Source of the DNA: Chitinophagales bacterium
Lineage (GTDB): Bacteria; Bacteroidota; Bacteroidia; Chitinophagales; UBA10324
Length of the DNA: 34,041 nucleotides
NCBI GenBank assembly: GCA_025057275.1
Contig: JANWXQ010000104.1
Coordinates: forward strand, 1 to 34,041
Reading direction: 5' to 3'
Below are positions 455 through 30,748 of the stretch, piece after piece. Position 1 is the first letter of the stretch. Every line of letters starts with the position of its first letter. The notes beneath the pieces were generated by a model, which did not search any database, had not been told where the DNA came from, and was given only the letters and a program-made list of their open reading frames with translations. The translations under genes were made by a program, and so were the position numbers.

Positions 455-2731
455 TCAGCGCTCATGCGTTTGTTGCGCATAGCGAAAAGCTTCAATCCGT
501 CCGTTTGAATAGTGCAACACCATCAGGTAAACACCAGTCGGAAGGGGACTGCTTTTGAGCCATGAATGCACGTCTTGAAGCGACAGATGACGAGAGAGCA
601 GCAAGCGGCCGGTTAAGTCATAGGCGTAGAGCCGCACCGGCTCATCAGGCAGTTGATAAACGCAGGAGGTGGTGTGCACCAGTTGTTCGGTTCCGTCGCT
701 GTCGGTCTGGCTCAGGCGATAATAGTTGATGCCCACTGCCGGACGGGGATCGGAGAAAACATAATGCGTGGGCAATGTGGAAAACGATTTTCCTTTTATC
801 GTGCCAATGCGTTCGAAGTGTTCACCGTCGGCTGAACGTTCTATAATCCAATGGTCGTTATTGAATTCGCTTTCTGATGTCCAACGCAGCAGCATCTGCG
901 CGGGAAGCGTTTCGCAGGTAAACGTGCTGACTTCCACCGGCAGCACCGGGCAGTCAATGGAAGCGCCGTTGGTCAATATCCAGTTCAGGTTAAAGCCGCT
1001 TCCTCCTGATGACCATTTGCTGATACACAGGTAATAGGTCTGGCCCGTCGAAACAGGCAAATCATTTACCCAGCAGTTGCCGCAGGCATCTTCCCAGGTG
1101 TCGTTGTTGGATATGCTGCAGTAGCCTGCGTACGTTTGATTGTAAGTGGTGCTGATGCCCGTGTTGCCGGCATTGCCGTTGTTGTTGTTTTGCCCCTGCG
1201 TGGTGGCCGTGGAGCACCGGATGGGATTGCCCAGATTGGAACAGCTTACATTAGGCCCGTAAAGTGCCCAGTCGTAGTCATCGGGCGCACCCGGACCTGT
1301 GGACAGGGGATCAATAACAAAACCCAGGGTTCCTCCGTTGGTAACGGTAAAAGCATACCAGTTGGTAAAGGTTTCGGCAATCAGGCAGGGATCATTGACA
1401 TCGCTGACCACACCGGGGCCTGTGCTGGCATCGGAAAACGTGGTGCTGGTGCACAGCGGCGTAGCCCGGATACAGTCGTTATTATCGATTCCGTTGGGCC
1501 CTGAGGCACAAGGCACACAGTCAAAGGTGGCCACCCATCCCGGGCCATTAGTGGTGAAGTTGGAGGAAAAAATAAACGTAATGCAGCCGCTCTGGTCATT
1601 GGACAGGTAGGGGCCCCAGCCTCGGGCCACACAGGCCTGGTAATTGGTGCAGCTTCCGTTAACCAGGTTGGAGCCGCCGCCAAACGGCAGACTTTGCATG
1701 GCCGGGCCGTTTCGGACTTCCAGCTTGTCGCCGCTTTTCAGATCTACATGGTGAAACTGAACGCGCAGACAGTGGTTAATCTGTGCCGGACAGTAAGTCT
1801 GGTAAATGGAATTGACGTTGTTGGCGTAATTGCCGCTCATCCCGCCGTTGTCGGTATAGGTTCCCGAACAGGTGGAGATCATGGTGCCTCCGATGTAGGA
1901 GTTGGCCAACCCAATCGTTGGATGCAGGTAATTAGCTGTGGCTCCGGGTGGGGAAGGGCAGGGCGCGCAACCAATGGCTGCTGACCAGCCTGCATTGGCG
2001 CCAAAGGCATTGGACTTAAAGGCAAAGGTGATGCATCCGGTGCTGGATAAAAATACCGGTGGCGTGCTGGTGGTGTTGGTGTAAAGCGTAAACAGGGGAG
2101 AGGCTGTGTTGGGGCCGTCGTAAACCCATAACGTATCGCCCGATCCGATATCTAAATTGTAGAAAACAAACTGCGCACAGTTGCCTAAAGAAGAGCAAAA
2201 GGTTTGGGTGACATTCAGGTTCGGGCCGTAGTTGGCTGAAGAGCCGCCCGCATCATAAAACAGCCCGTCGCATGTATTGTGCGTAGCAGGGGTATTGAGC
2301 AGGTAAATAGTGCCACATGGCGCACAGGTAATGGTTGCCGCCCAACCCGATTTGTTATTGGAACCGTTGGAAACAAATTTGAAGGTTAGCGAAGAAGTGC
2401 TGGAAACGATGGTGCCTGGTGATTTGGTTCCCGAAAAATTTCCGATAACGGGAGCACTGGTATTTGGACCATCGTAAATGGTCAGAATGTCATTACCGGC
2501 CTGGGTATGAAAGGAAGTGAACGTAAAGGTGAGGCACTCTCCGTTGCTGCTGGTGAACGTCATGGTCAGGTTGGCATTGTCGCTGTAGTTGGCGCCGCTG
2601 CCTCCGCTGTCGTAAAACGTTCCGCCACAGGTGGTTACCGATGAATTGGCCATGTTGTACGATTGGGCATGCAAGCCCAGGGCCATACCCGAAAACAGGA
2701 AAATCGCTGCTATAGATTTTCCCCTCACCAC
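455..2731 (-). CDS. Secreted CUB-like protein with T9SS type A C-terminal sorting domain
   Basis: 758 residues, secreted and probably surface-attached. A signal peptide (hydrophobic residues 7-20, cut likely after HA at 21-22) leads into three CUB-like modules, roughly 35-138, 150-258 and 285-410. Each has an early C-x-G-x-(F/Y)-x-D-x-G-G turn, a Y/V-x-G-P motif and an ending W-x-A-x-x-x-C-x-P-C. A fourth region (about 415-600) resembles the jelly-roll domain found after CUBs in Bacteroidota surface proteins, with DDYDWALYGP and a TYYLCISKW strand. A short linker strand region (WIIERSADGEHF) precedes a T9SS type A tail ending in LPTGVYLMVLHYSNG. The start is GTG: a stop codon lies in frame at 2735-2737, and the only other candidates are GTG at 2728 or ATG at residue 16, which would destroy the signal peptide. 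Ligand and function are unknown. Confidence 0.8.
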   Translation of the reverse strand: MVRGKSIAAIFLFSGMALGLHAQSYNMANSSVTTCGGTFYDSGGSGANYSDNANLTMTFTSSNGECLTFTFTSFHTQAGNDILTIYDGPNTSAPVIGNFSGTKSPGTIVSSTSSLTFKFVSNGSNNKSGWAATITCAPCGTIYLLNTPATHNTCDGLFYDAGGSSANYGPNLNVTQTFCSSLGNCAQFVFYNLDIGSGDTLWVYDGPNTASPLFTLYTNTTSTPPVFLSSTGCITFAFKSNAFGANAGWSAAIGCAPCPSPPGATANYLHPTIGLANSYIGGTMISTCSGTYTDNGGMSGNYANNVNSIYQTYCPAQINHCLRVQFHHVDLKSGDKLEVRNGPAMQSLPFGGGSNLVNGSCTNYQACVARGWGPYLSNDQSGCITFIFSSNFTTNGPGWVATFDCVPCASGPNGIDNNDCIRATPLCTSTTFSDASTGPGVVSDVNDPCLIAETFTNWYAFTVTNGGTLGFVIDPLSTGPGAPDDYDWALYGPNVSCSNLGNPIRCSTATTQGQNNNNGNAGNTGISTTYNQTYAGYCSISNNDTWEDACGNCWVNDLPVSTGQTYYLCISKWSSGGSGFNLNWILTNGASIDCPVLPVEVSTFTCETLPAQMLLRWTSESEFNNDHWIIERSADGEHFERIGTIKGKSFSTLPTHYVFSDPRPAVGINYYRLSQTDSDGTEQLVHTTSCVYQLPDEPVRLYAYDLTGRLLLSRHLSLQDVHSWLKSSPLPTGVYLMVLHYSNGRIEAFRYAQQTHER
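459..484. terminator. Hairpin at the YihY / CUB-protein convergent junction
   Basis: Seen in the sequence: CGCT (459-462) pairs with AGCG (481-484) and ATGCG (464-468) pairs with CGCAT (476-480), with one bulged C at 463 and a 7-base loop. The hairpin starts two bases past the stop codon of the minus-strand gene, inside its last codons. There is no strong T-run, only AAAA at 485-488. A bidirectional terminator or RNA 3'-end stabiliser is inferred. Confidence 0.4.
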
Positions 2732-11313: not shown

Positions 11314-13818
11314 ATGCAACCACACCCTGAATCCAAGGACTCCACCGGACTAACCGGACAGACCGATGAAGCCTCCGAGCCGCAATTGCCAGAGACAACG
11401 GAAGCTACTGCAGAGGTTCCCTCCCTGGAAGTTCCACCCGTAACCAAACAATATTTCTCAGCAATTGCCGAATGGCAGAGCAGCGGCAACCGCGTTTATT
11501 GTGGCGATGGACGGGCCCGCATGGAAGTTTCGGTGATCAGCGATGACATCGTTCGTGTGCGGCTGGCCCCCCATGGTCAGTTCCTGGAAGATTTCAGTTA
11601 TGCCGTCGTAGGCAAGAAAGGACTTCTGTCACACCTGGATGTGGTGCGCAACGAGTCTGACCTGATGCTGACCACCAACTCGCTGCAATGCCGCATTCAG
11701 TTGGCAGACGGGCGCATCAGTTTCCATGACCTGGATGGCGAGCTGCTGAACGCAGACCGGCTTCCTCTTCACTGGGAGGAAAACATTACTTATGGCGGCT
11801 ATTACGTGTATTGCAGCAAGCAGCGACAGCAGGACGAAATTTTTCTGGGACTGGGCGATAAACCCATGTCGTTGAACTTGGCCGGAAAGCGGCTGCGCCA
11901 GTGGAACACCGATGCGTACCATTACGAACGCAACACCGACCCGCTATACAAAAGCATTCCTTTTTACATCGGCCTGTGGAATGGCCGCGCTTACGGTGTT
12001 TTTTTTGATAATACGTTTCAGACCTTTTTTGACTTTGGCTACGAGGACCCCGGCACCGTAAGCTTCTGGAGTGAGGGGGGTGAAATGAATTACTATTTCA
12101 TCAACGGCCCCCATATCATTGAAGTGATCCGTCGCTATGCCGAACTGACCGGCACCACTCCGCTGCCGCCTCTGTGGGCATTGGGCTTTCATCAGTCGCG
12201 GTGGAGTTACTACCCCGAACAGCGCGTCCGGGAGGTGGCAGAAACCTTCCGTCAGAAGAAATTGCCCTGCGATGTCATTCATCTGGACATTGACTACATG
12301 GACGGCTTTCGCTGCTTTACCTGGAACCGCCGCCATTTTCCCAATCCCAAACGCATGATAGCTGATCTGGCGCAGAAAGGATTGAAAACAGTACTGATCG
12401 TGGATCCGGGCATTAAGGTGGATGATCCTTATTGGGTGTATAAGGAAGGAACGGAACAAAAGCGATTCTGCCGGCGCGGCGACGATTACTACATGGAAGG
12501 GCATGTATGGCCCGGCCGATGCCGGTTTCCCGATTTTACTCATCCGGATGTGCGCGCCTGGTGGGGGGATTTGTTTGCCGGCTTTGCCGATCAAGGGGTG
12601 GCCGGCATTTGGTGCGATATGAACGAGCCGGCCGTTTTTGGCACCGGCACTTTTGCGTTGGATGTACGCCACGATTACGATGGTCAGGGCGGCTCGCATC
12701 GCAAAGGGCACAATGTGTACGGTATGCTGATGGCGCGGGCAACGTGGGAAGGCCTGAAAAAACTCAGGCCCAACAAGCGACCCTTCGTCATCACGCGGGC
12801 GGGTTATGCCGGCATGCAGCGCTACGGGTGCACGTGGACCGGCGATAACCAGTCTACCTGGGAGCACCTCCGGCTGGCTTCAATCATGTTGCAGCGCCTG
12901 AGTATTTCTGGCGTTTCCTTTGCCGGTTCCGATATCAGTGGTTTTGTGGGCACGTGTGATGCGGAATTGTATGTTCGCTGGATGCAGTTGGGAGCCCTGT
13001 CGCCGTTTATGCGCGTGCACAGCGCCGGCAATTCCAACAGCCGGGAACCCTGGGCTTTTGGTGCCCGAACGGAACGTATAGTAAAAAAATATCTGGAACT
13101 TCGTTACCGTCTGTTGCCGTACATCTATTCTGTGTTTTGGGAAAACAGCCGCCACGGTTTTCCTGTGTTGCGGCCCCTGATTGCCCTGGAGCAGGCCAAT
13201 CCCGATTTGCTTCAGTTTGAAGAATGTTTCTGCTTTGGCGACAAACTGCTGGTGGCTCCGGTAACCGAACCGGGAGCCGAAAGCCGGGCCGTTTACCTGC
13301 CTGCCGGCTTGTGGTACGACTTCTGGTGCTTGCACCTTTTTGAAGGCGGACGCACCCATCAGGTGGCAGCCCCGTTAGACACGCTGCCTCTTTTTGTCAA
13401 AGCAGGTACCGTATTGCCCGAAGGTCCGGCCATGCAATACGTAGGCGAAAAAACAGCAAGTCCGTTATCGCTTAATGTTTTCTTCGCACCCTACCACGTC
13501 AACTCCTTCCTGTTTGAAGACCATGGCGACACCTTTGCCTTTGAACAGGGCGTGTATTGCGAGAAAAAGTTTGAAGTCTGTGGTTCGGCGTCGCATCTGC
13601 TGATAACCCAGGCAGCAACAGGTATGTATGCTCCGCCTTATGACAATTACCGGATTAAGCTGATTGGATTGCCGTTTGTTCCGGCACAGGTGACCGTGGA
13701 TGGCCGTAAAGTTCGCGGGCTGAAAAAGGTGCGTTCCAAAAACATTTACATGGTGGATGTAACCCGTCATTTTTCCCGGCTGGAGATCCATGCTTCGGAA
13801 AGCGGTGAACGCCAGTAA
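11314..13818 (+). CDS. Glycoside hydrolase family 31 alpha-glucosidase
   Basis: 834 residues. Releases alpha-linked glucose (or alpha-xylose in some relatives) from the non-reducing end of glycans. Layout: an N-terminal beta-sandwich (about 55-270), the (beta/alpha)8 barrel starting at PLPPLWALGFHQSRWSYYPE, and C-terminal beta domains including a DUF5110-like part (about 715-810). The catalytic nucleophile is D435 in GIWCDMNEP; the likely acid/base is D511 in WTGDNQSTWEHL. HLDIDYMDGFRCFTW and MRVHSAGN further fit the family. The first ~45 residues are rich in Glu, Pro, Ser and Thr, with no hydrophobic signal, so the enzyme is probably cytoplasmic. No SusC/D pair or other sugar genes are nearby. 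Substrate is inferred only from the family. The ASST-like gene follows on the same strand but has its own promoter. Confidence 0.93.
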   Translation: MQPHPESKDSTGLTGQTDEASEPQLPETTEATAEVPSLEVPPVTKQYFSAIAEWQSSGNRVYCGDGRARMEVSVISDDIVRVRLAPHGQFLEDFSYAVVGKKGLLSHLDVVRNESDLMLTTNSLQCRIQLADGRISFHDLDGELLNADRLPLHWEENITYGGYYVYCSKQRQQDEIFLGLGDKPMSLNLAGKRLRQWNTDAYHYERNTDPLYKSIPFYIGLWNGRAYGVFFDNTFQTFFDFGYEDPGTVSFWSEGGEMNYYFINGPHIIEVIRRYAELTGTTPLPPLWALGFHQSRWSYYPEQRVREVAETFRQKKLPCDVIHLDIDYMDGFRCFTWNRRHFPNPKRMIADLAQKGLKTVLIVDPGIKVDDPYWVYKEGTEQKRFCRRGDDYYMEGHVWPGRCRFPDFTHPDVRAWWGDLFAGFADQGVAGIWCDMNEPAVFGTGTFALDVRHDYDGQGGSHRKGHNVYGMLMARATWEGLKKLRPNKRPFVITRAGYAGMQRYGCTWTGDNQSTWEHLRLASIMLQRLSISGVSFAGSDISGFVGTCDAELYVRWMQLGALSPFMRVHSAGNSNSREPWAFGARTERIVKKYLELRYRLLPYIYSVFWENSRHGFPVLRPLIALEQANPDLLQFEECFCFGDKLLVAPVTEPGAESRAVYLPAGLWYDFWCLHLFEGGRTHQVAAPLDTLPLFVKAGTVLPEGPAMQYVGEKTASPLSLNVFFAPYHVNSFLFEDHGDTFAFEQGVYCEKKFEVCGSASHLLITQAATGMYAPPYDNYRIKLIGLPFVPAQVTVDGRKVRGLKKVRSKNIYMVDVTRHFSRLEIHASESGERQ

Positions 13819-13863
13819 TCAATTAAGGATAAAGGCCCTTACGGAACAGGCCCCGGATTTTTC

Positions 13864-13871
13864 TACATTTG
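13864..13871 (+). promoter_or_regulatory. -7 box of the arylsulfotransferase-like gene
   Basis: TACATTTG is an exact TAnnTTTG match, located after the GH31 stop and 20 bases before ATG 13892. It supports choosing that start over an upstream ATG (13790) that would overlap GH31. Confidence 0.55.
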
Positions 13872-13891
13872 CACAAACCTCTTTCGTTCCC

Positions 13892-15976
13892 ATGCGGGCC
13901 AAGTTCCGTGCTTTCGCTGGCTTTCTTTTTATTTTCTTTTTGTTGCATGCATCTCTTGCTTTTTCCCAGTATCAGTACCTGTCGCCGATGCCCGGTTCCC
14001 GTTACCATCCGGCCAAAACGGGAATCATCATCCGGCATGGGGATGATCTGGATCCGCAGACCGTAAACCGTCATGCCTTGTTCCGGATTATTGGTTCAGA
14101 GTCCGGCGAGCATGATTTCACCATCTCGCTGGCTACCGACGGTAAAACCCTGAATCTGCGGCCGATTCGTTCGTTTGCTGATGGCGAAACGGTTACGGTT
14201 ACGGTTCTTCCCGGCATGAAGAGCCGTTCCGGCGCACAACTGGACGGAACGGAGTTTTCTTTTCAGATTCGGCCCTACTGGTCCCCTGATGATCGTAAAC
14301 GCGTGGCCGATCACATGCAGGAGGTGTACCGGCAGGATTTTTCCAATAATTCCTACCTGGCTAAGGGTGGCCCTGAGTCGGGATTTCCGGATTTTACCAT
14401 TAACACCAACACAGCGCCGGCTCCGGGTGAAGTTTTTTTCAGTCACTTTTCCATCTTCAGCGGCATTGGTGATCCTCATTACTGCATCATCAAAAGCAAC
14501 GGCGATTCGGTGTACGGCAAGTGGGATACCGTCAATTTCAACAATTTTGAATTAAACGAAAACGGTTATCTGACCCTTTACAACCGGCTGGACTCTACCT
14601 TCATCATGCTGGATTCCAATTACCGGCCGGTGGACACATTTCAAATGAAAAACGGCTATATCGCCGACGTGCATGAGTTCGTCATTTTTCCGAATGGCAC
14701 GCATTACATGCTCTGTTACGACCCGCAGATTGTGGACATGACGGTGTACAACCCCAATTACAACCCGGCGGCCACCGTCATCGGTTGTGTGTTTCAGAAA
14801 ATAGATAAAGCCGGAAATGTGCTCCTACAATGGCGCAGCTGGGATCATATTGATATTCTGGATGCCAGCAACGTGTTTTTTCAGAATCCGATTGTGGATT
14901 ATGTGCATGCCAATGCCATTTATGAAGACTGGGACGGCAACATCTGGCTCTGCAGCCGTCACCTGAGCGAGGTGACCAAGATTGATGCCAGCACCGGCGC
15001 CATCATCTGGAGGTTGGGAGGAAAAAAGAATCAGTTCACCTTTATTAACGACAACAACAAGATTTCCTATCAGCATGATGCCCACCGGTTGCCTAACGGC
15101 AACATGTTGTTGTTTGACAATGGGGTTTATCATAATCCTCCATTGACTGCTGCCAAGGAATATGTCCTGGATGAAGTGAACAAGACCGCTACGCTGGTTT
15201 GGAGCTACACCCGCCAGATAGGCACCAGCAAGGTATTCAGTAAGGCTATGGGCGGGGTGCAGCGTCTTTCCAACGGAAACACCTTGATTTGCTGGGGCCT
15301 GACCATTGCCCAGCCGGGAGCTCCAAAGCTGACCGAGGTAGATGCCAATAACCAGGTGGTCTGGGAAATGACCATCAATAACGCCGATGCCGTTTACCGC
15401 GCGCAACGTCATGTGTGGAATCCATGCGCTCGACCCACCACCTCCACCGTCACCGTGGATAAGATGAAGGCCACGTCAGTCCGTGTGGTCTGGGCACCGG
15501 CTACAAACGCCACGTCTTATGACTTGCAGTACCGTAAGCAGGGCGCTACCAATTGGAAAACCAAAGGCACCAACAAAACCCAGAAGCGCCTGAAAGACCT
15601 GCTTCCGGAAACCACCTACGAATACCGGATCAAAAGCAAATGCGCCAACAATCCAAACAGCCCGTCAGCGTTCACCGATATCAAAACCTTTACCACTCCT
15701 CCGCTGCGTCTGGAATACTTTGAACAACCCATCGAAAAAGCTGAGATGGTCGTTTATCCCAATCCCACCGACGACCGGCTTCATGTTGCAGTGAAAGGCA
15801 TCGAATACCCCTTTGTACTGAACCTGTACACCCTCACCGGTCGTATGGTGATGAGCCGGCGCTGCACAGACGCTACTTCCCTGGAGCTGAAGCTCAATGG
15901 GTTGCCCTCAGGCAGTTACCTTCTGGAACTACGCAATAACGAGCAGGTGCTCGTGCAGCGTGTGATCAAGCATTAA
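13892..15976 (+). CDS. Secreted arylsulfotransferase (ASST)-like protein with FN3 and T9SS type A domains
   Basis: 694 residues from the ATG at 13892, where a good signal peptide (FAGFLFIFFLLHASLAFS) begins and a promoter box sits just upstream; a longer frame from 13790 would add 34 residues read through the GH31 end. An N-terminal Ig-like domain (about 20-130) leads to a six-bladed propeller of Arylsulfotransf type (about 165-510), with blades carrying DVHEFVIFPNG, HANAIYEDWDGNIWLCSRH, STGAIIWRLGG and HDAHRLPNGNMLLFDNG. An FN3 domain (about 515-605) and a type A sorting tail (MVVYPNPTDDRL to GSYLLELRN) follow. ASST enzymes move sulfate between phenolic compounds; whether this member is active is not shown. 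It is exported by Sec and then T9SS. Confidence 0.82.
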   Translation: MRAKFRAFAGFLFIFFLLHASLAFSQYQYLSPMPGSRYHPAKTGIIIRHGDDLDPQTVNRHALFRIIGSESGEHDFTISLATDGKTLNLRPIRSFADGETVTVTVLPGMKSRSGAQLDGTEFSFQIRPYWSPDDRKRVADHMQEVYRQDFSNNSYLAKGGPESGFPDFTINTNTAPAPGEVFFSHFSIFSGIGDPHYCIIKSNGDSVYGKWDTVNFNNFELNENGYLTLYNRLDSTFIMLDSNYRPVDTFQMKNGYIADVHEFVIFPNGTHYMLCYDPQIVDMTVYNPNYNPAATVIGCVFQKIDKAGNVLLQWRSWDHIDILDASNVFFQNPIVDYVHANAIYEDWDGNIWLCSRHLSEVTKIDASTGAIIWRLGGKKNQFTFINDNNKISYQHDAHRLPNGNMLLFDNGVYHNPPLTAAKEYVLDEVNKTATLVWSYTRQIGTSKVFSKAMGGVQRLSNGNTLICWGLTIAQPGAPKLTEVDANNQVVWEMTINNADAVYRAQRHVWNPCARPTTSTVTVDKMKATSVRVVWAPATNATSYDLQYRKQGATNWKTKGTNKTQKRLKDLLPETTYEYRIKSKCANNPNSPSAFTDIKTFTTPPLRLEYFEQPIEKAEMVVYPNPTDDRLHVAVKGIEYPFVLNLYTLTGRMVMSRRCTDATSLELKLNGLPSGSYLLELRNNEQVLVQRVIKH

Positions 15977-25892: not shown

Positions 25893-27986
25893 TCAGCGGA
25901 TGAGTGTTACCGTACCCCGGTATTCTTCCGGTTCGCTTCGTTCACTGCAGGATACTTTAACATAATACATATACGTTTCCATTGCCTGACGTTGTCCCTG
26001 AAGCGTACCGTACCAGGGCAGGCCGCCTGCGGTTTCATAATCGTAAACCAGCATACCCCATCGGTTCCACACGCGGATGGTGTTGATCGTATAGCAACTG
26101 TGCGTAATGATTTGCCAGGCATCGTTGATTCCGTCGCCGTTGGGGGTAAAGGCATTCGGAATGTGCACTTGGGGTTCCGGAATGACGACCCGTACCTCCA
26201 CGCAGGCCGTGTCGCGGCAGGCATTGGTGCCGGTGGCAATCACGCAGTAGGTGACGGTGTCTTCGGGGGCAGCGATGGGATTTTGCAGGGTGTTGTCGTT
26301 AAGCCACTGGGCGGGTTCCCACCAAAAGGAGGCCAGATCGTTACCTTGTGCATACAGATACACCGGCTCCCAACCTTTTACGATACTGTCGGGCTGGGCA
26401 AAGGCGGTTACAGTGGTCGTCATGACATCCACGGTAACGGTTTCCGACAATGAACAACCTCGGGAATCGGTAACGGTAACCTGGTAGGTGGTGGATTCGT
26501 TAGGATAAACTGTGGTGGTGTCGGTGGTAGCGCCGTTACTCCAACTGTAGGTAAGTGTTCCGGTTCCTGTGGCCGTAGCCTTGAGTAAAGCGCCAGTGCC
26601 TTTACACACCGTGGTATCGTTGCTTACCTGCAGGCTCAAAGGAACGTAAGGTAGGGTAGGAATGTTGAGAGTGAGGCCGGTGGCAGACTGGCCGTCTTGT
26701 CCGGCCTGGGCATTGTTCGTGGCATTCAGGCAGGCAGTGCCTGAAACGGTTCCGGCTGCGCCGCCATTCATAGTGGCCGGCGGCAAAGCTGAAGCGGAAA
26801 CAAGCACGAGGCCACCGCCACCGCCACCGCCGGGGCCAAAGCAGGAGTCCGCTGCAAAGGCACCATTGTCCACATTTCCCCCTTTTCCACCTCGGGCCTC
26901 CACCGTGAGGCCGTTGAACGACGACACGTCGAGCAGCACCATGCCTGCGCCCCCGCCGCCGCCGGCGCCGTCAGCCTGCGCGGTGGCATTAACATCCAAG
27001 CCATTTGCGGCAATTCGGAATCCGTTTCCTTCAATGGCCTGGGCACGTATCAGGATAATGCCTCCGCCATTGCCTCCGGCCGTTGAGCCTCCGTTATTGC
27101 CATCGCCGGCGCCGCCACCTCCGCCAAAAAACAGTCGGCTGCCCGGGCTGCTGCTCAAGGCATAACCACCTGCTCCACCATGCATTCCTTCACAGCCACT
27201 TCCCGCATTATTGCGTCGGCCACCTGTTCCTCCCATACCCACATTGCTACCGCCGCCGCCACCGCAGTTGCTGTCATTGCCACCCCCGCCGCCGTTGGCG
27301 GGTGCTCCGCGACCAAACGGTTCGGATAACGGACCGGCTATACTTTCTCCCTTGTATCCTCCGGCATCAGAAGCAGCCGAGCGATAGCCAGCATAGCCGG
27401 TGCCGCTATTGTAACAGGTCATCTCATTGGCCGCAGTGCCACCGCGAAAGCCCGTGCCGCTGGCATCTATATCAGCTAACAAATGCACGGTGCCGGTGGC
27501 GGTCAATGCGATAACGCCCCCGCTCAACCCATCCCAGGGTTTGGCCTGAAGAGGTGCTGCCACCCAGACATCACCCAGGTAACGGGGCACGTGCACCAAC
27601 TGATATCTACCCGTCGGGGAAAAGGCAGGAGTGATCGCTTCCTCAAAGGTGATGTTGTTAAACGTCACATCACTGACGGTTAGCAACTCGTAGTAACCGG
27701 CTCCCTGCCAATCGGTGATGCTGCCATAGGTGGCCAGGTCGCTAAGGTCAATGGTGGCGCCATCCACCTGCATCAACAGGACCTGATCGCCAATGGTCAG
27801 ATTATTTACCAGAAAAGGAACAGAAACCCGGTTGTTGCAGATGTCCAGTGCCATAACCGGGAAATACGTATTAATAATTCCTCCAATAAGTTGTTGTGCT
27901 GCTGCGGGTACTGCGCACAGCAGCCATAAAAACCCGAATGCCGTCTTCAATACGCGATGCGTTGTATGCGGCCGGTATGGGGTCAT
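25893..27986 (-). CDS. Glycine-rich secreted protein with gliding-motility (T9SS type B) C-terminal domain
   Basis: 697 residues. A signal peptide (VLKTAFGFLWLLCAVPAAAQQ) is followed by a beta-rich N-terminal region (about 35-200), a long Gly/Ala/Asn-rich block (about 200-435) full of GGGGG and GGxGG repeats, a PKD-like domain (about 450-530, with TYSWSNGATTDTTTVYP and TYQVTVTDSRGC), another short Ig-like part, and the CHU_C tail beginning IPNAFTPNGDGINDAW and ending in EYRGTVTLIR. The glycine-rich block resembles those in large surface adhesins, but no binding partner is evident. It follows the CotH gene with a one-base TAATG overlap, so its translation is probably coupled. Confidence 0.85.
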   Translation of the reverse strand: MTPYRPHTTHRVLKTAFGFLWLLCAVPAAAQQLIGGIINTYFPVMALDICNNRVSVPFLVNNLTIGDQVLLMQVDGATIDLSDLATYGSITDWQGAGYYELLTVSDVTFNNITFEEAITPAFSPTGRYQLVHVPRYLGDVWVAAPLQAKPWDGLSGGVIALTATGTVHLLADIDASGTGFRGGTAANEMTCYNSGTGYAGYRSAASDAGGYKGESIAGPLSEPFGRGAPANGGGGGNDSNCGGGGGSNVGMGGTGGRRNNAGSGCEGMHGGAGGYALSSSPGSRLFFGGGGGAGDGNNGGSTAGGNGGGIILIRAQAIEGNGFRIAANGLDVNATAQADGAGGGGGAGMVLLDVSSFNGLTVEARGGKGGNVDNGAFAADSCFGPGGGGGGGLVLVSASALPPATMNGGAAGTVSGTACLNATNNAQAGQDGQSATGLTLNIPTLPYVPLSLQVSNDTTVCKGTGALLKATATGTGTLTYSWSNGATTDTTTVYPNESTTYQVTVTDSRGCSLSETVTVDVMTTTVTAFAQPDSIVKGWEPVYLYAQGNDLASFWWEPAQWLNDNTLQNPIAAPEDTVTYCVIATGTNACRDTACVEVRVVIPEPQVHIPNAFTPNGDGINDAWQIITHSCYTINTIRVWNRWGMLVYDYETAGGLPWYGTLQGQRQAMETYMYYVKVSCSERSEPEEYRGTVTLIR

Positions 27987-30748
27987 TATTCAGGCAGGAA
28001 GACCATTTTGATATACTGCTGAAAGCCCGGATAGCTGATATCCAGCAGATAAACGCCTGCGCTAAGTCCAAATTCCTGCAAGCTGATATCCACCCGGTGC
28101 TGACCCGGCTGAGCCAGTTCGGGATAGCGGCTAACCAGTTCGGCCTGTATCTGCCCTGTTGCAGACAACAGCCGGATCTGCAGGTCCTGTGGACTCAGGA
28201 GGCTATAGCTCAATGTGAAGCGATCCTGAGTGAGGGTGGGGAAAGCCATCAGGCCGGTGAGGTTATCGTCAGGCAAGCCGGTGGATTTTTCGAAATGAGC
28301 CACAATCTGATCGGCGCCAAAAAGGGCAAAGGAAGCCTGCGGGCTGGTGCTGTTCGGATTGACGAAGTGAATTCCCGCCGACCAGTAATCGAACTGGTAC
28401 CCCGTGGCCGGAACAGCCTGCAGATCAATATGGGTTCCGCTCAAAAAGGTGGCGGAATACGGAAAATTGGAGATACCCGTTCCTTCCACCACGAGCGAAC
28501 CGCTGCCTGCCGGAATGACATCGAAGGTGAGGGCAAATTCCGGAAGGATGATCTTGAACACAGCCGTTACCACATCGTCGGAGGTCAGATTAAGAAAAAT
28601 GGAATCTGAATTGGTTCCGGGATTGACTACGTTGTTGTTGACCAGCCAGTGGCTGAACATCATGTTGTTGTTCGGGATGGCTTTTGCCTTGAAGCCCAGA
28701 TTGATTCCGCCATAATACGAACCTGACCATGGGTAGTTTTTGGGAGTAAAGGTGTTTATGGTAACTGTGCCGGCGCCTGCAGGCTGCACATCCACGGTAA
28801 CCTGGTAGGGTCCGGTAACCTGGTAGCAATCCACGATGCCTGCAGCAATGGCAGCACACCGTTGCAGCATGAAGTTTTCCAGATAGTTCAGGTTGTTCTG
28901 CCAGCCGGTAACGGATCCGCCCCAGCGCGCCGTATGGCCGGGCATTTCGGCCAGCAGCAGGTCAGCAAATTCCTGTTTGAGGGCTACCATGCTGTCGCAG
29001 GAGAAAACGGTATTGAGCAATTCCGCATAGCGGTTGATATACATCGCTTTGAACTCGTCGTTCTTGAGCAGTTCGTCCAGAATGTCCAGATGACCCATGT
29101 TGGGTCCGGCATTGTTGAAAACGGAATTGAGGTCACACGGATCGGCAGTGTAATTGGTGGTAGGCCACCCGGAGTAGTTCTGTCCCAGTCCCAGAACATT
29201 ATCCTGATCCCACAGGGAATAGGTCCATTTGGTGCGGCCGCCGGTCTGGTCGCGACCCCGCCACCACATGGTGTTCCAGTTGATCCAGTCGCAGTTGACC
29301 AGAAAAGTGTTAAGCATCATGTAGTCAATCACGCTCTTCAGATTGAGGCGTTCCTTGACGTATTCATAGTTGGCCTGAACCGTCATGGAATTAATCATAA
29401 TAAAATTGTATAAATTCTTCCATGCCGTATCGCTGCCGTATTTGACGTTCAGACCGCCCCAATAGGCCAACACGTCAATGTATTCTTCTTCCTGGTCGTA
29501 GTAGTAATCGGTGAAATCGGGTTCATCCATTTTTTCCCTGACTTCATAAATGCCCCAGTATTGACCGTTGATATAGACGATGCCGTGTTCGTTGGTTCGC
29601 AGGTCCATTTCCAGATTATTGCGCAGGGCCAGGGTATGCACGAACGCATCGCGCATGTGGCAGGGAGCCGTTCCCCAACTAAACGGATAATTGTCGGAAG
29701 CTCCTGCCTTCAGGATGAGGTGATCAAAGGAAGGCCGGTCGCGGTCGGCAAAAATTTTATAGGGAATCTGATGAGCATATCCGTAATCGTCTTCGATCTC
29801 GAAGTCTATCCCTTTTTGTGGAAATGCCCAGGAATCGTTGCCGTGCGGGTCCACCTTGCCTTCTCCGTCAGCGCGCAGGATGCGGTCTTTATCGTAGAAC
29901 TCCAGGTAGGCATCGATATCATAGGTGCCCCAACTGTTGAACAAAGTGCTGAAATCTCCGGAGGCCAGCGACAGCACGTAGTACCGGGAATCATGGGTAA
30001 CATTGATGAAATACGTATTGGCCACTTCAAAACTGGGCAGCAAACCTGCAGCGCTGTTGAAGGCACGTGCCCGCAGAAACTTGGTGCTGGTAATACTGAT
30101 CGGTCCGGTATATACCGGTGAAGAGGTGGTAGGCCTTGAACCATCCAGTGTGTAATGAATGGTGGCATTGGGGTCGGCACAGCTTAACGTTACGGTAACA
30201 GATCCGGTATAAAATCCTTCCGGAAGGTCAGCGACCGGCGCCGGCACGTAGGCCGCGTAGCCTGTGCCGTTACTTGCATTCGGGGTAGGAGCAGTGAATA
30301 CCACCCAATTGGAAGATCCATTAGGTGAACGACCGTAAGAATGATTTTTCTGCGTCAGGGTAAGAGCCACCTGATCTACCACATTTCCTGATGCATCACT
30401 CAGAACAATATGTTCAAATTTGGTTTGGGTCAAACGAAAATTGGTATGCACGTGGTTGGTGGTAGTCAGGTTGCGATTGGATGCCCAGATCAGCTTAAAC
30501 TGTCCGGCATTGATCGTTACGCCGTTGGGAATCTTATACTTTAACGGATCAGCAGGGTCGTCGGAGATGTACCAACCGGAAAGATCGGCTGTTGTGGAAC
30601 CGGCATTGTAGAGTTCCACATAATCTTCGTAATCGCCAAAGTTGTCAGGGATGATGTTTCGGTTGGAACAGGAATACTCGTTAATGACTACCTGTCCCCA
30701 GATCAAACCGGGAAACAGCCATATAGGAATCAGTAACAATTTGTTCAT
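27986..30748 (-). CDS. Secreted CotH-kinase / lamin-tail protein with T9SS type A domain
   Basis: 920 residues. Order of domains: signal peptide (1-18), lamin-tail (LTD) domain about 19-140 (VVINEYSCSNRN, ELYNAGSTTADLSGWYISD), a chitobiase C-terminal-like beta domain about 170-240 (ATIHYTLDGSRPT), a CotH kinase-like region about 260-600 with GIVYINGQYWGIYEVREKMD and SLWDQDNVLGLG, two InlB/divergent Ig-like repeats (about 650-735 and 736-825, each with VxPAGxGxV and a HWxxN / YWSAG strand), and a T9SS type A tail. CotH is an atypical protein kinase of spore coats, but the kinase residues were not checked in full, so activity is open. It is the first gene of a two-gene unit; its promoter is at 30772-30799. 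Confidence 0.85.
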   Translation of the reverse strand: MNKLLLIPIWLFPGLIWGQVVINEYSCSNRNIIPDNFGDYEDYVELYNAGSTTADLSGWYISDDPADPLKYKIPNGVTINAGQFKLIWASNRNLTTTNHVHTNFRLTQTKFEHIVLSDASGNVVDQVALTLTQKNHSYGRSPNGSSNWVVFTAPTPNASNGTGYAAYVPAPVADLPEGFYTGSVTVTLSCADPNATIHYTLDGSRPTTSSPVYTGPISITSTKFLRARAFNSAAGLLPSFEVANTYFINVTHDSRYYVLSLASGDFSTLFNSWGTYDIDAYLEFYDKDRILRADGEGKVDPHGNDSWAFPQKGIDFEIEDDYGYAHQIPYKIFADRDRPSFDHLILKAGASDNYPFSWGTAPCHMRDAFVHTLALRNNLEMDLRTNEHGIVYINGQYWGIYEVREKMDEPDFTDYYYDQEEEYIDVLAYWGGLNVKYGSDTAWKNLYNFIMINSMTVQANYEYVKERLNLKSVIDYMMLNTFLVNCDWINWNTMWWRGRDQTGGRTKWTYSLWDQDNVLGLGQNYSGWPTTNYTADPCDLNSVFNNAGPNMGHLDILDELLKNDEFKAMYINRYAELLNTVFSCDSMVALKQEFADLLLAEMPGHTARWGGSVTGWQNNLNYLENFMLQRCAAIAAGIVDCYQVTGPYQVTVDVQPAGAGTVTINTFTPKNYPWSGSYYGGINLGFKAKAIPNNNMMFSHWLVNNNVVNPGTNSDSIFLNLTSDDVVTAVFKIILPEFALTFDVIPAGSGSLVVEGTGISNFPYSATFLSGTHIDLQAVPATGYQFDYWSAGIHFVNPNSTSPQASFALFGADQIVAHFEKSTGLPDDNLTGLMAFPTLTQDRFTLSYSLLSPQDLQIRLLSATGQIQAELVSRYPELAQPGQHRVDISLQEFGLSAGVYLLDISYPGFQQYIKMVFLPE

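Follow-up and report, generated by a model that had tools for sequence, protein, structure and literature searches.

The window, i.e., the whole stretch of 34,041 nucleotides that was analysed, carries on its minus strand two overlapping genes whose products end in different T9SS sorting tails. We consider that they probably form a clade-specific two-gene operon of outer-surface cargoes, which would be co-transcribed and exported by different sorting routes. Taken alone, this would be a modest surface operon limited to one clade; the broader and more useful result is that, according to a motif rule, the tail type has switched at least six times within the putatively exported family to which the first gene belongs. 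The two genes and their parts are:

27986..30748, minus strand: gene 1, LTD–CHB_HEX–CotH–InlB-repeat–type A tail protein, 920 aa
30365..30697, minus strand: lamin tail domain (LTD; residues 18–128; Pfam PF00932, 1.9e-18), whose model resembles lamin Ig domains (Z about 9)
30050..30223, minus strand: chitobiase/hexosaminidase C-terminal-like domain (residues 176–233; Pfam PF13290, 1.6e-21)
28820..29986, minus strand: CotH kinase-fold domain (residues 255–643 by structure, 301–631 by Pfam; PF08757, 4e-29)
28286..28456, minus strand: InlB B-repeat-like domain (residues 765–821; Pfam PF18998, 9.4e-12)
27989..28231, minus strand: weak type A T9SS tail (residues 840–920; TIGR04183, 18.1 bits)
27984..27988, minus strand: TAATG, in which gene 1 stops and gene 2 starts, identical in genome G001
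25893..27986, minus strand: gene 2, glycine-rich AgmC_N-type protein with a type B tail, 697 aa
26784..27881, minus strand: AgmC_N-like region including the glycine-rich stretch (residues 36–401; NF047640, 3.8e-58)
25896..26165, minus strand: type B (CHU_C) T9SS tail (residues 608–697; TIGR04131, 55.5 bits for a cut-off of 35)

The earlier note had described two cargoes with unlike T9SS tails joined by a TAATG overlap, and this description stood, with a weak tail in gene 1: the open reading frames are exact and share a single base, the A of TAATG (junction ...GAATAATGACC...). The motif is retained in G001, which belongs to the same genus as the window's own genome (G000), despite the divergence of the sequence around the junction, and the start of gene 2 is therefore probably real. 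The identification of gene 1 as a CotH and lamin-tail protein was borne out by the Pfam matches listed above, that to PF08757 reaching 102.6 bits for a cut-off of 23.8. Its type A tail falls below the curated cut-off of NCBIfam TIGR04183 (18.1 versus 23 bits, E 0.002) and is absent from the genome-wide type A matches at E <= 0.01, for which 150 of 173 candidates were scored. The orthologs in genomes G003 and G008 have type A tails above the cut-off (33.3 and 26 bits, respectively), and the ortholog in G001 gave no type A tail match by NCBIfam.

Gene 2 is a glycine-rich protein with a type B (CHU_C) tail, as the earlier note had stated, both TIGR04131 and CHU_C (PF13585, 2.2e-16, 60.2 versus 27 bits) being above their cut-offs. 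It matches the AgmC (adventurous gliding motility) profile NF047640 over positions 42–399 of 412 with 197.4 bits, below the equivalog cut-off of 275 bits, which was exceeded by no match in the 198 genomes searched in the phylum. The apparent likeness to AgmC is one of profile, and gene 2 differs in ending with a T9SS type B tail. AgmC originates from a Myxococcus motility screen, and we found no relevant literature on AgmC together with gliding and Myxococcus, or with T9SS and glycine-rich proteins, nor anything that looked relevant among the AgmC papers listed. The glycine-rich region contains 31% Gly, 15% Ser+Thr+Tyr, and 4% Lys+Arg. The structure model, built from two sequences, was unusable (mean pLDDT 36.9). 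In the reading that we favour, gene 2 would encode a structural glycine-rich surface protein or an adhesin, any fold or adhesin role proposed for it being a guess. A weak PHROGs match (best 1.8e-5), which would have made of it a virion structural protein, was taken for an effect of composition. Two more AgmC_N-type proteins with type B tails are encoded in G000 on contig C90 (52003–54438 and 100015–102669, plus strand), the sole CotH match and all PorP/SprF matches of the genome being located on other contigs.

The earlier note had also made its reading depend on co-occurrence in other genomes, and the two genes do recur side by side: they are adjacent and on the same strand in four of the 16 genomes of the family (G000, G001, G003, and G008), which represent three genera of a single clade, and the pair persists at CotH identities down to 57% with partly rearranged flanking genes. 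The intergenic gaps are -1, -1, +5, and +39 nt, respectively, the TAATG overlap being present only in the two genomes of the same genus. In six other genomes of the family (G002, G006, G010, G012, G014, and G015) the CotH gene has other neighbours, in two (G005 and G013) the contigs are too short to show them, and in three (G007, G009, and G011) there was no CotH match at E <= 1e-60. The last one, G004, has a close CotH ortholog, split in pieces over two contigs, followed by a gene that has no AgmC profile match and, on visual inspection, resembles a further type-A-like T9SS cargo. The proposal that the overlap fixes the ratio of the two products and that these act together is weakened by these results: the overlap is kept in one genus only, relatives of gene 1 have other neighbours, and a different gene occupies the position of gene 2 in G004.

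Outside the family, the gene pair was present in no locus examined. Three genomes (G027, G042, and G054) contain well-matching counterparts of both genes, located on different contigs, and the genes adjoining their AgmC-like gene are not CotH. A downstream gene is visible for 86 of the CotH loci compared; in three of these, all belonging to the family (G001, G003, and G008), an AgmC-type gene lies downstream on the same strand, and the window itself adds a fourth case. At locus L161, a weak AgmC profile match (5.4e-13) in a long type B protein encoded upstream probably comes from the region after AgmC_N. At G031:C34:324124–326338 (L028), the match to a CotH relative is split in two, and the second of its frames contains an in-frame TAA. 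At the level of whole genomes, with sets read by hand at E <= 1e-60 (CotH) and E <= 1e-36 (AgmC_N), both families were present in 21 of 60 genomes (including the window's own), CotH only in nine, AgmC_N only in seven, and neither in 23. This co-presence (Fisher p 0.0006) is weakened as an argument because the count ignores kinship.

The adjacency of a type A and a type B cargo gene is not remarkable by itself, because cargo genes are abundant in G000 and two further tandems, with type A preceding type B, occur there, as read from coordinates, on contigs C73 and C14 (the type A tail of the latter, 17.3 bits, being under the cut-off). This genome of 2.48 Mb, in which the pair is located on contig C57, contains 16 type B tails, all above the cut-off, and 147 type A matches at E <= 0.01 (150 of 173 candidates scored, some genes having two matches). 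On C73 (L194, 1–7021), a type A cargo gene is directly followed by two tandem type B cargo genes. The window itself encodes a further type A cargo (13790–15976, plus strand, 42.7 bits) and a gene with a weak type A match (455–2731, minus strand, 19.1 bits). The two genes could thus have become neighbours by accident, once, in a cargo-crowded genome, and have been kept together by descent without functional link, as might be suggested by the number of cargoes, the other tandems, the confinement of the pair to a single clade, and the varying neighbours of CotH. We nevertheless find this explanation unlikely, since adjacency was maintained across three genera, at CotH identities as low as 57% and among partly rearranged flanking genes, and since TAATG was retained in two genomes with diverged flanks. 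The conservation of the pair in four genomes is a stronger point than the A/B adjacency alone, and we favour the clade-specific operon, which would have been assembled once, in one clade, from two widespread T9SS cargo families otherwise found apart.

The structure model of gene 1 was built from 37 sequences (mean pLDDT 86.5). Its chitobiase/hexosaminidase C-terminal-like part resembles 8ayr (Z 11.7) and 6q63 (Z 11.3). The CotH domain has the fold of the spore coat kinase CotH (B. subtilis, B. cereus 5jd9/5jda; PF08757), the best superposition being with B. cereus 5jd9 (Z 31.6, rmsd 2.5 Å, 328 residues) and the next structure over this domain being another kinase (Z 12.2). According to a review (PMC12189002), CotH keeps equivalents of PKA D166, N171, and D184, and in the B. 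cereus protein the adenine is stacked between Tyr142 and Trp245. In gene 1, D487, N492, and D514 correspond to the three PKA residues and W513 to Trp245, as judged from a diverse CotH alignment (A5, 17 rows, 16 of 30 loci used) and from a profile alignment with 5jd9. The earlier note had made its reading depend on CotH active-site residues, and the Asp/Asn/Asp set is indeed present within the solved CotH fold.

These four residues are invariant both in alignment A1 (20/20), which consists of gene 1 and 19 of the 20 loci L062–L081 with rows obtained by protein search, and in A2 (37/37), which consists of gene 1 and 36 rows from a set of named loci (the 80 best of 526), mainly ATG starts under a length limit. 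In the diverse set A5, D487 and D514 are conserved in 17/17 rows and N492 in 16/17, and position 513 is Trp in eight rows, Tyr in eight, and Phe in one. E405 is also conserved by column counts. A feature of the LTD–CotH proteins lies near the active site, in residues 302–315: they have HG(N/Q)DSW (HGNDSW in gene 1) and Gln311, instead of the RGN(T/S)S-like (RG..S) motif and Lys of other CotH. Gln311 is found in 20/20 rows of A1 and 37/37 of A2, versus Lys in the 16/16 other rows of A5; the presence of HGNDSW in the named set of 80 loci is biased, as it was one of the two search patterns used to assemble this set. B. cereus CotH also has the Lys of the KKS motif where gene 1 has Q311, a replacement that counts against full activity, although this Lys is not a settled defining feature of CotH kinases.

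The kinase-fold domain of gene 1 probably binds a nucleotide, as predicted from these residues, and may act on surface material by transferring phosphate or another group. One could alternatively suppose that LTD–CotH proteins no longer carry out phosphotransfer and act instead as binding scaffolds at the surface, in line with the replacement of Lys by Gln311 throughout A1 and A2 and with predicted export to a place where ATP is presumably scarce. The catalytic Asp, the metal Asp, the Asn, and the adenine-stacking Trp are however invariant in both alignments and a dead domain would need none of them, which makes this explanation improbable to us.

Compared with the spore coat kinase, gene 1 adds the LTD, chitobiase-C-like, and InlB-type domains and a T9SS tail, and has no Ser/Lys-rich partner. 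The Bacillus cotB/cotH/cotG module offers a parallel, as a CotH gene is found there beside the gene of a surface structural protein, and its substrates have Ser/Lys-rich repeats (PMC7821199). In contrast, gene 2 is rich in Gly, has few Lys/Arg, carries its own export tail, and lacks, by composition, Ser/Lys-rich repeats of the known CotH-substrate kind. The earlier suggestion that the kinase modifies its glycine-rich partner thus found no support, and we hold a dedicated kinase–substrate pair, in which an exported CotH would phosphorylate the glycine-rich protein as in Bacillus, to be quite improbable: it would agree with the catalytic residues and the CotH fold, with the adjacency kept in three genera, with the single CotH match of the genome, and with the Bacillus example, in which the gene of the kinase lies in a cluster with those of its substrates (same source), but it conflicts with the composition of gene 2, with the two AgmC_N paralogs on contig C90, away from the sole CotH, with the presence of another gene beside the close CotH ortholog of G004, and with the replacement of the conserved CotH Lys by Gln, and leaves the supply of ATP outside the outer membrane unexplained.

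Another protein combining LTD and CotH in one extracellular polypeptide is the cellulosome protein Cthe_0239 (LTD–LTD–Fn3–CotH; PMC6083626), which is cellulosomal and not a T9SS cargo, and for which the available text of this source mentions no glycine-rich partner. This cellulosome work was the only literature that we found linking CotH with a lamin tail. Our searches recovered no publication on CotH with T9SS, none on an exported Bacteroidota CotH among those on CotH kinase and secretion in Bacteroidetes (judged by titles), and no functional study of the LTD–CotH subfamily in Bacteroidota.

Gene 1 is a member of a large subfamily of LTD–CotH proteins predicted from their sequences to be exported, and the tails of this subfamily vary. 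We compared 95 distinct CotH loci, namely L062–L081 (20 loci) and 75 loci from the named set (the 80 best of 526), from which four copies and one locus without a CotH frame had been dropped. Tails were classed by a motif rule rather than by the curated profile, gene 1 being entered as type A by hand; 64 loci were type B, 24 type A, six were cut, and one was unclear. An NCBIfam check of six CotH tails gave type B for L145 and L066 and type A for L063, L064, and L176, these five being above the cut-off, and no tail match for L062. In a quick maximum-likelihood tree of 96 rows, based on the domains preceding the tail, the tail type (by the motif rule) changes at least six times on starred branches and seven times on the best tree. 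The four CotH proteins of the conserved pairs form one clade (SH-aLRT 100), all classed as type A, among type B rows (support 94).

In F. johnsoniae, PorV is the shuttle for type A tails, and type B tails rely on PorP/SprF-like shuttles, the genes of which often lie immediately downstream; both the shuttle and the final location of the cargo are set by the tail type (PMC12618676). At the surface, PorP-like proteins serve as binding partners of type B cargo (PMC9143113). Among the CotH loci, a PorP/SprF gene is present within two genes downstream in 33 of the 64 type B loci versus none of the 21 type A loci with a visible downstream gene, with gaps of -4 to 198 nt (at most 24 nt in 31 of the 33). 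For one of these neighbours, an NCBIfam check gave a match to TIGR03519 with 129 bits. The association with PorP needs only three changes on the tree, and the test on six independent pairs was not significant (same direction 0.9, no difference 5.1); it is thus possibly due to descent.

Gene 2 shares its type B tail with cargoes of the SprB/SprF type, and many type-B-tailed CotH relatives precede a PorP/SprF gene as in that system, whereas the neighbour of gene 2 is a type A cargo. G000 has six PorP/SprF matches, five of them above the cut-off, none of which is located on the contig of the pair, and such a gene lies directly downstream of two of the 16 type B genes (on C61 and C58). In the operon that we propose, gene 1 would use the PorV shuttle, typically to a lipopolysaccharide-type anchor, and gene 2 a PorP/SprF-like shuttle encoded elsewhere in the genome. 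Sharing an operon would provide co-expression, which we regard as the likeliest meaning of the pair, and a dedicated kinase–substrate relation would not be needed.

A more elaborate scenario, which we consider very improbable, is that the LTD–CotH proteins with HGNDSW and Gln311 are extracellular kinase-fold enzymes of altered chemistry, the location of which would be reset by swaps of T9SS tails, here by exchange of a type B anchor for a type A one, with the AgmC_N-type glycine-rich protein as substrate or scaffold. The subfamily in any case raises the question whether kinases work outside the outer membrane. The switching of tails detected by the motif rule parallels, in nature, the tail swaps made in the laboratory in Flavobacterium johnsoniae, and this family offers a route to study how the tail sets anchoring. 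Finally, five loci of genus g6 (L065–L067, L079, and L080) have a gene of 351–364 aa upstream of CotH, whose product there carries a type B tail; that of L066, the one examined, encodes PorQ (NF033711, 286.7 bits).
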